A DNA stretch of 42,192 nucleotides from Oscillospiraceae bacterium (lineage in GTDB: Bacteria > Bacillota > Clostridia > Oscillospirales > Ruminococcaceae). Both the position numbers and the translations under genes were made by a program. The notes beneath the pieces were generated by a model. That model saw nothing but the letters and a program-made list of their open reading frames with translations. It did no database searches and was not told the origin of the DNA. Location of the stretch: contig JAFUWN010000078.1 in the NCBI GenBank assembly GCA_017483465.1, forward strand, positions 1-42,192. Direction: 5' to 3'. This document shows positions 4,666 through 9,237 of this stretch, piece after piece; position 1 is the first letter of the stretch, and every line of letters starts with the position of its first letter.

Positions 4666-5880
4666 TTATTTTTCAAAAACAGGCTGAGTCGGGTCAGGAT
4701 CAGCGAGTTCTGCATCTGTGGGCTGAGTCGGGTCAGGGTCAGCAAGTTCTGTATCTGTCGGCTGGGTCGGGTCAGGGCCAGCTAATTCAACGGACTGTTT
4801 TTTTTTAAACTGATAGCTCTGTCCGGTGCCTTCATAAGCGGCATAAACCAGAATCTGTGCGGCATCGGCAGAATCCAGCATACCATCTTCATCCACATCT
4901 CCGCCCGTAATCTGATCTGCATTCAGAATCTCTTCTTTGCCGGAACCTGCATTTGCAGCATGAAGCAGAATCTGTGCGGCATCAGAAGCATCAATGACTT
5001 TATCATCCGTTACATCGCCCATTCTGGAAAGACCGCTCTGCTGAATAATCATTTCTGCAATTCTTGCATGACCGGCCGCTGTAGGATTCAGATCAAGCTG
5101 ATACAGATTCGTATATTCATAGGCTTTTCCTGCAAATTCTGCCGAAATGTCAGCTACAATACAGTTATCTGCTTCAGCGAACTGAGCAATATAAGTATTC
5201 AGTGCCTTATTCAATGTTGTTTTAGCAGGATTCATAATAGCACCATAAGCCGTCTGTCTTCTGGTAGAAAGCGTATCATAAAAATCAAGGGTATCAAGCA
5301 GATTATAATCCGTCTGCCATATAATTTCAGCCTGAGGATATTTAGAGAGTTCTGTATTGATCAGCTGGATATTTTCGGCCGCAGAATCCTGATTCTCACG
5401 GATAGCCGCAGCCATTTCATTGGCATAGGGCATCAGATCATTTTCATCTTTGAAGCCATAATCTTCGAGTTTGGCAGAAAATACATCTGTGAATTTTTCA
5501 AATCCGAATTTTGCCATAAAGCCTTTTGAAACTTCCAGGAAAGAATCCATAATATCATGTTCTCCGATATTAATCAGAATCACATCAGCCTGAGAAAGAG
5601 CCTCCTGCACCTGGGAATCAGAAAGACAGGTAAGCATATCACCTGTAGTATAATGAGCCTGTGCAAAATTCTGAATCTGGATATTGGTATAATCTTCCAA
5701 CAAATCGACATAAGAACTTTCATTTTCGGCAAGTCCTGCACCGGTTGCGATACTGTCACCAAGCACGACGATTTTCCGTACATGCTCTCCATGAGCTGTA
5801 AGAAGAACATTTTGTCCGGACACGATCAGCATAGCCGCAGAGAATACTGCAAGAGATTTCATATAGTTTTTCATAATCAT
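4666..5880 (-). CDS. Secreted SGNH/GDSL-fold protein with dockerin and DPTQPTD repeat tail
   Basis: An exported SGNH-hydrolase-fold protein of 404 residues. Signal peptide at 1-30. Block I is VVLGDSIATGAG (Ser43). Block III reads IGEHD (106-109), where the family has GxND. Block V reads LDLNPTAAGH (262-271), where the family has DxxHP, so the oxyanion Asn and catalytic His positions appear exchanged. A type I dockerin-like duplicated Ca-binding motif follows (about 287-350: GDVTDDKVIDASDAAQILLH and GGDVDEDGMLDSADAAQILV). The C-terminus has three ELADPDPTQPTD units. SGNH proteins with dockerins are usually carbohydrate or lipid esterases, but the changed residues make activity uncertain. GGAGG lies 4 nt before ATG 5880 and 10 nt before a second ATG at 5874, so either may be used. 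Confidence 0.9.
   Translation of the reverse strand: MIMKNYMKSLAVFSAAMLIVSGQNVLLTAHGEHVRKIVVLGDSIATGAGLAENESSYVDLLEDYTNIQIQNFAQAHYTTGDMLTCLSDSQVQEALSQADVILINIGEHDIMDSFLEVSKGFMAKFGFEKFTDVFSAKLEDYGFKDENDLMPYANEMAAAIRENQDSAAENIQLINTELSKYPQAEIIWQTDYNLLDTLDFYDTLSTRRQTAYGAIMNPAKTTLNKALNTYIAQFAEADNCIVADISAEFAGKAYEYTNLYQLDLNPTAAGHARIAEMIIQQSGLSRMGDVTDDKVIDASDAAQILLHAANAGSGKEEILNADQITGGDVDEDGMLDSADAAQILVYAAYEGTGQSYQFKKKQSVELAGPDPTQPTDTELADPDPTQPTDAELADPDPTQPVFEK
4682..4798 (-). repeat. Three 39-bp tandem repeats encoding ELADPDPTQPTD(A/T)
   Basis: Units begin at about 4682, 4721 and 4760 and keep the reading frame. They encode a Pro/Asp-rich tail after the dockerin. The first encoded copy is slightly diverged (AGPD), and the third ends in VFEK at the stop. 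Confidence 0.9.
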
Positions 5881-5980: not shown

Positions 5981-6904
5981 TTATTTTTTTTGTTTCAGCA
6001 TGACATAGGAAACAACCAATGTAATCAGGACGGAAATCAATGTCGGGAACCAGGTATCCGGCACAGGCAGATGAGCCGTATTCATACCATAAAAACTAAA
6101 AATCATAGTTGGGATTGACATAATAATTGTAACTACAGTCAGCCGCCACATGACAATATTCAAATTATTGGAAATCACCGAGCCGAATGCCTCCACCATA
6201 CTGGAGATAATTCCGGAATAGATATTGCTCATCTCGATTGCCTGGCGGACTTCAATCAGGACATCTTCCAGCAAGTCCTGATCTTCGTCATACAGCTTGA
6301 TGGTTCTGCCTCTGAGCAGTTTTTCGATTGTCACTTCATTGGCTTTGAGTGAAGTAGAAAAATAAACCAGAGATTTTTCAAGTTCCAGCATCTGAATTAA
6401 CTCCTTGTTTTTCATAGCAGAACTTAATTTCTGTTCCATCACATAAGAAGTTTTATCAATCTGTTTCAAGTCTTGCAGATAGATGGCTGTAATTCTTAAC
6501 AATAACTGCATTACAAATCTGGTTTTCATCCGGGTCTGCACGCCCTTGACAACACCGTCAGCCATATCCTGCAGCACCTGATTTTGTTTCAGAGAAATCG
6601 TAAATACATAATCCTGTGTAATAATAATTCCCAAAGGAACTGTATAGAATAAAATCGTTTCTTCTGTCTGAATTTCTGACATTGCCGTATCGACAATAAT
6701 CAGAGTCTGGTCATCTTCCCTTTCGATACGGGAGGATTCTTCTTCGTCCAGAGAAGAACGCACGAAACCGCTGTCGAGGCCATAGCCTTCAATCAGCTGC
6801 TGCACTTCCTGAGCAGTCGGATCGACCACAGAAATCCAGCAGCCCGGAACAGGGCTTTCGAGAGAACGGACAAAATTATCCTGTGTCTGATAAAAATGAA
6901 TCAT
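5981..6904 (-). CDS. corA: CorA-family divalent cation (Mg2+) transporter
   Basis: CorA proteins are pentameric channels that import Mg2+ (some family members carry Co2+, Ni2+ or Zn2+). The 307-residue product has the long helical cytoplasmic domain, then two C-terminal membrane helices. The diagnostic GMN motif (FYGMN, residues 273-275) lies at the end of the first helix, followed by a short acidic loop (HLPVPD) and the second helix. ATG 6904 (MIHFYQTQ) is chosen because AAAGGCGG lies 11-14 nt upstream; an upstream in-frame ATG at 6958 would read through the leader hairpins. The gene is preceded by its own promoter, a 21-codon leader ORF and a set of competing hairpins, which strongly suggests regulation in the leader. 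The family is confident; the preferred ion is not proven. Confidence 0.95.
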   Translation of the reverse strand: MIHFYQTQDNFVRSLESPVPGCWISVVDPTAQEVQQLIEGYGLDSGFVRSSLDEEESSRIEREDDQTLIIVDTAMSEIQTEETILFYTVPLGIIITQDYVFTISLKQNQVLQDMADGVVKGVQTRMKTRFVMQLLLRITAIYLQDLKQIDKTSYVMEQKLSSAMKNKELIQMLELEKSLVYFSTSLKANEVTIEKLLRGRTIKLYDEDQDLLEDVLIEVRQAIEMSNIYSGIISSMVEAFGSVISNNLNIVMWRLTVVTIIMSIPTMIFSFYGMNTAHLPVPDTWFPTLISVLITLVVSYVMLKQKK

Positions 6905-6905
6905 A

Positions 6906-6969
6906 GAAAAAAATACCGCCTTTCTGACAGACGGTTTTTTTCTGTCAGCGTACAGCAAACACCGTCTGT
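6906..6969 (-). promoter_or_regulatory. corA leader attenuator: competing hairpins over the ribosome binding site
   Basis: Three pairings on the minus-strand RNA exclude one another. (a) ACAGACGGT (6961-6969, inside the leader ORF) pairs with ACCGTCTGT (6927-6935), 9 bp. (b) CTGACAGA (6941-6948, containing the leader stop) pairs with TCTGTCAG (6924-6931), 8 bp. (c) ACCGTCT (6929-6935) pairs with AGGCGGT (6915-6921), 7 bp with one G-U, followed by A and seven Ts (6907-6914). Structure (c) looks like an intrinsic terminator and also buries the corA ribosome site (6916-6923). Structures (a) and (b) free it. The pairings are read from the sequence; the switching is inferred. Confidence 0.65.
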
Positions 6970-7010
6970 ATATTGAAATATTCCGCTCGCCCGAACGGGT
7001 CTGTACTCAT
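6945..7010 (-). CDS. 21-codon leader peptide upstream of corA
   Basis: ATG 7008-7010 to TGA 6945-6947, encoding MSTDPFGRAEYF and then NIQTVFAVR. A strong ribosome site (GGAGGTGG) lies about 10 nt upstream, and the ORF begins about 45 nt after the predicted transcription start. It shows no signal peptide or membrane segment. Its interest is position: the last third of the ORF overlaps the 5' arms of two hairpins that compete with the corA terminator. Asp4-Pro5 is the type of early acidic-proline sequence that destabilises ribosomes at low Mg2+ in the enterobacterial MgtL leader. No sequence relation to MgtL is seen, so the parallel is inference. Confidence 0.65.
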   Translation of the reverse strand: MSTDPFGRAEYFNIQTVFAVR

Positions 7011-7063
7011 AATAAATTCCACCTCCGGAAAAAATAAGATTCTGATTTTTTTACAATACTTTT

Positions 7064-7092
7064 ATTATAGCAGATTTTTCCGGCAATAGCAA
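7064..7092 (-). promoter_or_regulatory. Promoter of the corA leader transcript
   Basis: TTGCTA (7087-7092), 17-bp spacer ending TGC, and TATAAT (7064-7069) on the minus strand. It has an extended -10 and places the start near 7057, upstream of the leader ORF. Confidence 0.8.
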
Positions 7093-7124
7093 GCATTTTT
7101 TCAAAATTCCGGAAAATACAGGAA

Positions 7125-7150
7125 AAATTCCCTGTCGGAACAGGGAATTT
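7125..7150 (-). terminator. Intrinsic terminator of the GH5 gene
   Basis: AAATTCCCTGT and ACAGGGAATTT form an 11-bp stem with a 4-nt loop, ending in a short T-run on the minus strand, 11 bp after the GH5 stop. Confidence 0.85.
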
Positions 7151-7161
7151 CTGCATAATAG

Positions 7162-9237
7162 TTATGAAATTGCTTTCTGAATGCCCTCGAGAATCTCCGG
7201 ATAATACCAGGAACAGTCCGAACGGTTCAGAATTCCATAGCTTCCTTCACCGGTTTCTGTATTATTATCCCAGATGAAGCAAGGGATTCCACGTTCTGCG
7301 GCAGTCTGAATATAAAATTCATAATAAGCGGCACGATCTTTGGGATTGCCTTTGTTTTCCGCACCGAATTCACCGATGATCACCGGCAGGCCTTTATCTA
7401 CAAAGCGTTCTTTCAGTATATCAAATTCATATTTCAGTTCTGCCTTGTCATCCGCTGTAAATTCTGTACTGTCCTTGAATTCATAGCTTGTAAATTTCCA
7501 GGGGGCATAATTATGAATAGAAAGAATCAGATTATCATCATCCGGAACAACAAGCCCATCAAGGGATTTTTCTGAAATAGAAGCCGCCTGTGTCGTGATG
7601 ACCAGTGTCCTCATACCGTTGTTTCCGCCGGATTTTCTGATTGTATCGACAAACGTCTGCAGCAGATGATTAATCACATCTCTTTCTTCCGCAGTACCGC
7701 CTGTCCATTCGTCCGTACTGTTGACAATGCGAGGTTCATTCAGACCTTCAAACAATAATTTTGTATCATAATTCTTGAATCTTTCGGCAATCTGTGACCA
7801 GATCTTAATATATTTCTCTGTGACTTCCTCTTCTTTATAATAAACCGGAGTCAGCCATGTATAATCATCATGATGCATATTCAGAATCGTATACAGATCA
7901 TTATCCATAGCATAGTCTACTACCTGCTGAACACGCTTGAGCCAGAGGCTGTCGATATTGCCTTCACTGTCAACATGATCTGTCCACGAAACCGGAATTC
8001 TGACAGCATTGAACCCGGCAGCTTTTACCGTATCAATCATCTGCTTTGTTGTTTTAGGGTTGCCCCATGCCGTTTCAAAATCCGTCACACTCCATGTGAT
8101 ATTATAGCAATCCAGAGAATTTCCCAGATTCCAGCCGACTTTGATATTTTTCACAATTTTCTGTGCATCATCATTCTGATAAGCCACCTGAATTTCTTCT
8201 GCCTCGGACAGACTGCCGACTGTTCCGCCTGCACCGTAGCTGTACCGGACTGTCATTTTATCCATTGTAATCTGCGGTGATTCGCTCCAGAAATAATGAA
8301 ATGCAATTTCCGTATCCTGCGGAATCTGCTCTTTAATCTGCTCCGGAATCAGCCATGTGACAGAAGCCTGTGAACTATCTGTTATGATCGAAAAAGTTTC
8401 GCTTTCAAACCAGTCATTCTCGCCCAGTTTAATACTGAATCCTGCATTCAGTTTGCCGAAAGCAGAATCTGCACTGACATCTGCTGTGACTAACTGCGGA
8501 ATGCCGTCTGTTTTCAGCAAGTCTTTCAACCGGAACGGCAATGAAGAATTGTCTTCATAATTCATCATCTGCCGGAGATCGAGAGCCGCTGTATTATCTA
8601 CAGGGATTTCCGCTCTCCGGGTATAACAGCAGGTGACATATTTTAAATTCACGTTTTCAACATCGCCCCACCAGTAGCCGATCTGAATTTTTCCTGTCGG
8701 ATTGATATGCTCCTGAATTTCGGCAGGCACATCCCACACAACTTTGACATAACTGCCGTCTGCCTGTACATTGAAATTATCAGACTGATACCAATAATCA
8801 TCTGTAGCGGCTTTGCAGGAAGCATCGACGGAAATACCGCATCCGCCCTGATAAGTTCCGATATTGCCGTCGGCTTCAAATTCAAAGACAAATTTCTGTA
8901 CAGTATCGCCTTCTGTCAGAAATTCCGTCAGAGAAATAGCATAAATCTTATTTGTATCATGATTCAGTACCACATCTGTATAATCTTTCTGTATGCCGGA
9001 CTGAAATGTAACAGTTTCTCTGGGGCTGACATGTTCTGTTGCAGGCGGTTCGGTTTCTGCGAGAGGTTCGGCCTGTATTTCTGTAGTTTGTTTTTCTGTT
9101 TCATTCTGTGATGTCTGTATCTGGCTGGAAGTATCTGCCTCTGTCTCTGCATCCTGTTTTTTTCCTGCACAGCCTGTCAGACATGCACAAGCTGTCAGGG
9201 CAGATACGATCAATGCCATAATTTTCCGGAATTTCAT
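7162..9237 (-). CDS. GH5 endoglucanase-type lipoprotein with two N-terminal beta modules
   Basis: Extracellular glycoside hydrolase of 691 residues that should cleave beta-1,4 glucans or related plant polysaccharides. The N-terminus is a lipoprotein signal with lipobox LTGC (Cys23), so it is held on the outer membrane face. A Thr/Glu/Gln-rich linker (26-72) follows, then two similar beta-rich modules (about 75-205 and 218-335) that are probably carbohydrate-binding. The GH5 barrel covers about 350-691: GWNLGNSLD (368-376), RIPVSW, NMHHDDYTW, acid/base Glu501 in FEGLNEPRI, and nucleophile Glu623 in IIGEFGAE. The motifs resemble GH5 subfamily 4, but the subfamily is not proven. AAGGAG lies about 9 nt before the ATG. 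It is monocistronic, with its own promoter and terminator. Unlike the two dockerin proteins in the window, it is lipid-anchored. Confidence 0.93.
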   Translation of the reverse strand: MKFRKIMALIVSALTACACLTGCAGKKQDAETEADTSSQIQTSQNETEKQTTEIQAEPLAETEPPATEHVSPRETVTFQSGIQKDYTDVVLNHDTNKIYAISLTEFLTEGDTVQKFVFEFEADGNIGTYQGGCGISVDASCKAATDDYWYQSDNFNVQADGSYVKVVWDVPAEIQEHINPTGKIQIGYWWGDVENVNLKYVTCCYTRRAEIPVDNTAALDLRQMMNYEDNSSLPFRLKDLLKTDGIPQLVTADVSADSAFGKLNAGFSIKLGENDWFESETFSIITDSSQASVTWLIPEQIKEQIPQDTEIAFHYFWSESPQITMDKMTVRYSYGAGGTVGSLSEAEEIQVAYQNDDAQKIVKNIKVGWNLGNSLDCYNITWSVTDFETAWGNPKTTKQMIDTVKAAGFNAVRIPVSWTDHVDSEGNIDSLWLKRVQQVVDYAMDNDLYTILNMHHDDYTWLTPVYYKEEEVTEKYIKIWSQIAERFKNYDTKLLFEGLNEPRIVNSTDEWTGGTAEERDVINHLLQTFVDTIRKSGGNNGMRTLVITTQAASISEKSLDGLVVPDDDNLILSIHNYAPWKFTSYEFKDSTEFTADDKAELKYEFDILKERFVDKGLPVIIGEFGAENKGNPKDRAAYYEFYIQTAAERGIPCFIWDNNTETGEGSYGILNRSDCSWYYPEILEGIQKAIS

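Follow-up and report, generated by a model that had tools for sequence, protein, structure and literature searches.

A conserved Asp-Pro leader ORF ahead of corA in Ruminococcus-related Clostridia, a candidate leader-peptide switch of magnesium uptake

In Firmicutes, genes of Mg2+ transport can be regulated by a riboswitch in their 5' leader, the M-box (Mg2+) riboswitch. The window analysed here, a 42,192-nt stretch from an Oscillospiraceae bacterium (assembly GCA_017483465.1, contig JAFUWN010000078.1, positions 1 to 42,192), contains a gene for a CorA-family channel that is preceded by an ORF of only 21 codons. What does so small an ORF do ahead of a Mg2+ uptake gene? The M-box (RF00380) had no match in the window, its own genome or six relatives, and the same search finds the M-box in Bacillus subtilis and Lactococcus lactis. 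The M-box contains an aptamer, whereas the element here is an ORF of the translated type. Rfam at gathering scores returned nothing for the window and six relatives, so no known riboswitch family is indicated. The reading that we favor, with moderate confidence, is a cis-acting leader-peptide switch in which finishing the leader would turn corA off and early ribosome drop-off at Asp-Pro would turn it on.

Read on the minus strand, the window has the leader ORF between a putative promoter (7092-7064) and corA (6904-5981), and the features of the locus are listed in Table 1. The original prediction described the ORF, its strong ribosome site and Asp4-Pro5 at coordinates that our minus-strand reading reproduces. 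Both pairings that it proposed are present, one of 9 bp (6969-6961 with 6935-6927; -12.9 kcal/mol as a bare helix) and one of 8 bp (6948-6941 with 6931-6924; -10.6 kcal/mol). A third hairpin (6935-6929 with 6921-6915; -10.0 kcal/mol) is likewise found where it was predicted; its 7 bp, one of them G-U, join ACCGTCT to AGGCGGT, and an A and a run of seven T (T7) come next. The putative promoter is no evidence by itself because the consensus scan found eight such sites in the region and 10.1 in shuffles. In the neighborhood, a 13-bp hairpin with a T-rich tail (7123-7152) is the likely terminator of the upstream minus-strand gene at 7162-9237. By eye, that gene encodes a 691-aa lipoprotein-like protein resembling a GH5-type cellulase, and 4666-5880 encodes an SGNH-type hydrolase with an apparent dockerin and a DPDPTQPTD tandem repeat near the C-terminus.

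Table 1. Features of the corA leader region in the window.
Feature	Position	Strand	Basis
Putative promoter of the corA transcript: TTGCTA, 17 nt, TATAAT, with TG ahead of the second hexamer	7064..7092	-	Consensus scan
Leader ribosome site GGAGGT	7021..7026	-	Sequence; similar sites in relatives
Leader ORF MSTDPFGRAEYFNIQTVFAVR, 21 codons and TGA	6945..7010	-	ATG 7010, TGA 6947-6945
Asp4-Pro5 codons GAC CCG, proposed drop-off site	6996..7001	-	Asp and Pro in 31/31 genus leaders
Gly7-Arg8 codons GGG CGA, rare-codon pair downstream of Asp-Pro	6987..6992	-	Codon counts
Arm 1 ACAGACGGT, inside the leader ORF, pairs with arm 2	6961..6969	-	9 bp; covariation in 18/31 genus leaders
Stop-codon region CTGACAGA, alternative 8-bp partner of 6931-6924 TCTGTCAG	6941..6948	-	Window sequence and energy
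Arm 2 ACCGTCTGT, common to both alternative hairpins	6927..6935	-	Pairing tests across relatives
Arm 3 AAGGCGGT, the ribosome site of corA and second partner of arm 2	6915..6922	-	Pairing tests across relatives
T7 run 3' of the hairpin, resembling a terminator only in the nearest clade	6907..6913	-	Terminator scan, T-run counts
corA, 307 aa, CorA-family Mg2+ channel, ATG 6904	5981..6904	-	Pfam PF01544, E 2.8e-46

Upstream regions of corA (up to 260 nt) were compared from 31 members of the genus and 115 further members of the order. The genus counts leave out a 32nd corA (G011), which is cut by a contig end and whose leader was seen in the pattern search described below. The 115 order regions remain after removal of three duplicates (L050, L057, L067) and of weak or partial CorA matches. 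An ORF starting Met-x-x-[Asp/Glu]-Pro behind a motif resembling a ribosome site precedes corA in all 31 genus relatives (L001-L031), and such a leader stands ahead of 66 of the 115 other corA genes of the order when ATG and GTG starts are allowed; TTG was also allowed later, which gives the 67 other leaders used below. By reading of the tables, the order-level leaders spread over at least 11 families, including the window's own. Outside this order but within the class, 19 of 61 corA upstream regions (nine families by reading) have the leader, often as M-D-x-D-P; this set covers part of the CorA matches and excludes L187 and L191, already counted in the order. The strict pattern is absent from 49/115 order-level and 42/61 class-level regions. 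The same test was positive in 5 of 3644 control segments and in none of 184 stretches that precede other long ORFs, both drawn from the fetched loci and the window and thus including related DNA. The predicted conservation of a short ORF with an early D/E-P is therefore borne out in the genus and in much of the order. Relatives are not independent samples, so the p values given below are guides only.

Pattern searches in genomes agree with this picture. A DNA pattern of ribosome site plus M-x-x-D-P matches once and only once in 23 of the 38 genus genomes, all 23 matches adjoin corA by coordinates, and the reversed control pattern has no match in the same 38 genomes. A longer leader pattern has 17 exact matches in 84,980 genomes, 16 of which adjoin corA, with 70-129 nt from the pattern start to the start of the CorA match; the remaining one (L158) has no CorA match within its 8 kb. 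One of the 16 (L164) has a CorA only 46% identical to that of the window, yet its leader begins MSTDPYGR. Named records with this kind of leader are metagenome-assembled genomes titled Ruminococcus, Oscillospiraceae, Clostridia or Clostridiales. A looser pattern gave 63 matches in 53 of 388 order genomes and was set aside as unspecific because only 21 of the 63 lie at corA by coordinates and its reversed control gave 13 matches by our count. The window's own genome has one MgtE match (G000:C107:27547-27939), and no D/E-P leader was found in the 3393-nt locus around it. Conservation across these sets indicates that the leader ORF is real.

Within the leader, conservation is concentrated at the start of the peptide. 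D4 and P5 are invariant in the 31 genus leaders, in which two Asp and three Pro codons are used (synonymous changes), and G7 and R8 are present in 30 and 28 of them, respectively. From residue 10 on, peptide sequence and length drift, so that at the peptide level selection acts mainly on the first nine or so residues, too few to fill the exit tunnel. A small functional protein was considered and rejected since good conservation ends after nine residues and the leaders differ in length. Order-level leaders mostly have one acidic residue, at position 4.

Codon choice just downstream of Asp-Pro is also unusual, a signature that the original prediction did not contain. In genus leaders, CGA makes up 28 of 33 Arg codons at positions 6-11 compared with 18/389 (4.6%) in 30 genus corA genes, and in the other leaders it makes up 46 of 79 compared with 3/202 (1.5%) in 23 corA genes. 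Gly at positions 6-9 is GGG in 25/30 cases in the genus (9.6% in corA) and in 18/40 in the other leaders (18.7% in corA). Ser at the same positions is AGT in 46/55 cases in the other leaders (6.5% in corA) and in 0/3 in the genus. Within the first 13 codons, AGT lies nearly always in the leader frame (20/20, 67/68, 19/20 and 17/20 in four sets), and CGA mostly does so in three sets (28/36, 50/79, 19/32) but not in the class set (5/13). Leaders with acidic or Pro N-termini were also picked by eye; in-frame CGA occurs in 18 of 21 such order-level leaders without strict D/E-P, and only 5 of 22 such class-level leaders, which keep Asp-Pro, have it. ARAGORN found Arg tRNA anticodons TCT, ACG, CCG and CCT in the window's genome and none with TCG, in a genome that is 95% complete and has 3 of 49 Rfam tRNA matches without an ARAGORN gene. 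Decoding of CGA by an inosine tRNA uses a weak inosine-adenosine pair, and CGA in this genome should therefore depend on that pair.

These codons bear on an alternative in which the leader senses some other slowdown of early elongation, such as uncharged Arg tRNA for CGA, an antibiotic, polyamines, or EF-P or ABC-F activity, and not Mg2+ as such. Attenuation by Arg is kept as part of it. We regard this alternative as possible but rather doubtful. It would account for the enrichment of CGA, AGT and GGG in order-level leaders and for the in-frame CGA of leaders lacking strict D/E-P, whereas the position ahead of a Mg2+ channel gene and the class-level leaders that keep Asp-Pro mostly without in-frame CGA argue against it, and a single Arg codon would be a poor amino acid sensor.

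Beyond about nine N-terminal residues, the comparisons indicate that the leader is conserved as RNA, without conservation of the peptide. Compared with dinucleotide shuffles, the stretch from codon 9 to the ribosome site of corA has the better fold (p < 0.05) in 23/31 genus and 46/67 other leaders, and this fold is as a rule a hairpin ending a few nucleotides ahead of the site; in the window alone, the upstream hairpin also beats shuffles (p 0.003). In L016, L021, L024 and L030, the leader overlaps corA and there is no notable hairpin between codon 9 and the corA site; these four are perhaps a minimal version of the switch. For the 9-bp helix of arm 1 and arm 2 (6961-6969 with 6927-6935), the arms were placed by hand in 18 of the 31 genus leaders (16 non-overlapping and two overlapping), with L015, L026 and the rest left out. 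In these 18, the covariation score is 0.379 compared with 0.190 (sd 0.025) in shuffles, and 19 cells are changed on both sides compared with 7.7; none of 500 shuffles did as well on either measure. Paired cells reach 88.9% compared with 78.8% in shuffles (0/500 as high), a percentage favored by the choice of leaders and placing of arms where pairing is present. Two of the five measures, pairs changed on both sides (331/500) and pair types (176/500), do not exceed shuffles. One column pair is paired in 18/18 leaders and uses all four Watson-Crick types (AU 8, GC 5, UA 4, CG 1). The covariation expected of this stem by the original prediction was thus found in the 18 leaders.

Across families, arm 2 is also predicted to pair with the ribosome site of corA. 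A first test over 32 nt upstream in the 31 genus leaders gave a Fisher p of 0.10 (6/31 below 0.05), and it was redone with arm 1 excluded because short leaders had arm 1 included. The new test took the 74 leaders whose codon 9 is separated from the corA site by 25-95 nt, 63 of which stop before corA and 11 of which overlap it. The 63 jointly give a Fisher p of 7e-18 (singly p < 0.05 in 23/63), none of 5000 permutations of ribosome-site partners pairs as well as the true ones, and in 58 of them the site pairing brings a gain of 2 kcal/mol or more and reuses four or more nucleotides of arm 2. In the 11 overlapping leaders, site pairing is not above chance (p 0.07, 2/11 below 0.05; 1004/5000 permutations), and six still show the reuse of arm 2. 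The 17 non-overlapping genus leaders taken alone are matched by 363/5000 permutations. For the window by itself, two tests put this pairing within chance (p 0.29 and 0.49). Covariation was also predicted for this stem (6929-6935 with 6915-6921) and failed to appear: within the genus there is none beyond shuffles, though 93.7% of cells are paired, because the site AAGGCGG hardly varies.

Leaders of the genus fall into two classes. The stop codon lies 17 to 50 nt ahead of corA in 17 leaders, and 14 of 31 overlap corA in another frame. The mutually exclusive pairings of the original prediction hold for leaders stopping before corA, taken together, and do not extend to the overlapping ones, whose second pairing is not above chance; in these, occlusion by the translating ribosome may replace it. 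The third hairpin had been proposed both to terminate transcription and to hide the corA ribosome site. A terminator fits the nearest clade, in which a T-run of at least five lies between the corA site and start (7/31 genus leaders, L001-L007), but not as a general feature since only 1 of 67 other leaders (L142) has one. A conserved G+C-rich hairpin with a T-run, as in attenuators with an intrinsic terminator, was not found. The rarity of the T-run makes hiding of the ribosome site the likelier common output.

Under transcription attenuation, the 6935-6915 hairpin and its T7 would form an intrinsic terminator, and the switch would control read-through into corA and not translation; we regard this account as unlikely. 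A terminator-like site is present in the window, an upstream A-run can extend its stem, and the seven nearest leaders share the T-run, whereas pairing with the ribosome site spans families. Stop-to-start distances of about 15-30 nt, or overlap, can allow reinitiation. Many leader stops lie about that far before the corA start and others overlap it, as expected if the leader delivered ribosomes to corA and its translation turned corA on. We judge such coupling improbable: a ribosome translating the whole leader would open arm 1 and so favor a hidden corA site, the hiding pairing exceeds chance where the leader ends ahead of corA but not where the two overlap, and CorL and MgtL, as precedents, work in the opposite direction. 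Chance or an annotation artifact would suit the whole leader RNA of the window, which alone is not unusually structured (z -1.12; 31/200 shuffles fold as well), and is made very unlikely by conservation across families of the order and class and at the level of codons.

The leader-peptide switch, as we favor it, combines these parts. Rare codons (GGG or AGT, and CGA) often come after the M-x-x-[D/E]-P start, the 3' part of the leader lies in or beside the hairpin of arms 1 and 2, and arm 2 can alternatively pair with the corA site. With enough Mg2+, the ribosome would complete the leader and cover arm 1, arm 2 would take the corA site, and corA would be off. In overlapping leaders, the ribosome would run over the corA start and physically cover the site, and in the window's clade the hairpin of arm 2 and the site, with its T-run, may also end transcription. 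In low Mg2+, a ribosome carrying a short Asp-Pro chain and slowed at the rare codons would drop off, arms 1 and 2 would pair first, and corA would be translated. The sensor would lie in the first nine codons and act while the exit tunnel is still unfilled, in line with the proposal made for MgtL, and one sensor would serve two wirings, the site-hiding pairing and the run over the corA start. The predicted outcome, a hidden corA site after read-through and a free one after early abort, fits the anatomy, with its mutually exclusive pairings and invariant Asp-Pro. Mg2+ as the trigger we infer from the gene, the MgtL-like position of Asp-Pro and the published leaders.

Folding models give the predicted direction on average. 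The models covered 83 leaders; 30 allowed folding with a ribosome placed at the stop codon, and the other 53 have the ribosome on or over the site, with access set to zero by assumption. Mean site accessibility in the 30 is 0.69 with arms 1 and 2 locked compared with 0.34 with the ribosome at the stop; the difference exceeds 0.3 in 17 and is reversed in five, where the site is more open with the ribosome at the stop. Free RNA of the window prefers the OFF fold (site open 0.03, or 0.33 with arms 1 and 2 locked), so the ON state needs arms 1 and 2 to pair first, during transcription.

A more specific version of the sensor can be offered tentatively; we think it possible, with less confidence than the switch itself. 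Mg2+ may be sensed by a short Asp-Pro chain together with a codon that is decoded weakly and lies in or beside the P site, either CGA (inosine tRNA) or AGT/GGG (wobble), whose weak codon-anticodon contact would promote peptidyl-tRNA drop-off as Mg2+ falls. Such a design would be a general one that has been used repeatedly, in clostridial corA leaders, in enterobacterial MgtL (CGA CGG AGA) and likely in CorL (AGT AGA). Its outputs would be interchangeable, either RNA pairing that hides the corA site or a leader that runs over the corA start.

The original prediction named MgtL as the precedent. The layout is indeed alike, but MgtL does not stand alone, since CorL before enterobacterial corA and MgtQ are also among the closest systems. 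In published accounts of MgtL, ribosomes drop off at EPDP in low Mg2+, and in its model complete translation means off, with a Rho-dependent output (PMC11282234). Like the clostridial leader, MgtL of E. coli and Salmonella is a short ORF with a strong ribosome site ahead of a Mg2+ importer gene. The E. coli peptide has an acidic-Pro motif at residues 2-5 with Asp4-Pro5 at the same residues, and basic residues and a CGA codon follow. A conserved early acidic/Pro motif and a position ahead of a Mg2+ uptake gene are therefore shared. Unlike the clostridial leader, MgtL precedes mgtA (a P-type ATPase), belongs to another phylum and acts through Rho. It also has more prolines (E2-P3-D4-P5), whereas clostridial leaders usually have one acidic residue and one or two Pro. 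Residues 2-5 of the window's leader contain a single acidic residue and a single Pro, not two acidic residues with Pro as in EPDP or DPEE-like motifs. In E. coli, DPEE is reported as the least motif that makes YFP clearly EttA-dependent (PMC11282234), so a leader with one Asp and one Pro should be weaker than the EPDP of MgtL.

CorL of Salmonella and E. coli is likewise a leader ORF before corA. Translation of E. coli corL is described as inversely related to corA expression, with two exclusive folds and Rho-dependent termination as the output (PMC11552253). E. coli ysgD (K-12 NC_000913.3 4001218-4001274; L240:719-775) reads LDTPSRYWLTILSSRINS with AGT AGA codons and is probably corL, judging from its UUG start and place. 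Like the clostridial leaders, it has an acidic residue and Pro near the start; its start resembles those of the order-level leaders LDSSPRLYRS (L147) and MDSGSPRLCY (L146). Unlike them, the E. coli ORF stops some 150 nt short of corA and has few acidic/Pro residues, and the relevant passages on CorL describe Rho-dependent termination and no hiding of the corA ribosome site (PMC11552253).

MgtQ, a uORF between mgtC and mgtB in Salmonella, has alternative stem-loops that are reported to hide the mgtB site (PMC8092293). The likeness lies in acidic N-terminal residues and in stem-loops that hide or free a downstream site at the level of translation; alternative stem-loops, one of them hiding the ribosome site, are present here as predicted pairing in the 63 non-overlapping leaders jointly. 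MgtQ differs in gene and sequence, in its four stem regions compared with three arms here, and in that a ribosome staying on stem 1 is described as favoring the ON fold (PMC8092293).

The original prediction knew of no such element for clostridial corA, and we likewise found none in open-licence full texts, a set outside which most subscription papers fall. By analogy, the clostridial leader appears to work like MgtL, CorL and MgtQ in layout, and it is a candidate member of the drop-off class. Ruminococcus-related gut bacteria have a tiny, strongly conserved gene before corA, at which ribosome drop-off in low Mg2+ would probably switch corA on. If so, control of Mg2+ uptake by early drop-off would be widespread in animal-gut Clostridia and no enterobacterial oddity. 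The conserved rare codons downstream of Asp-Pro may provide a handle on what makes N-terminal sequences shed ribosomes at low Mg2+, and the two output classes within one genus would be a case of the same sensor wired to different outputs.
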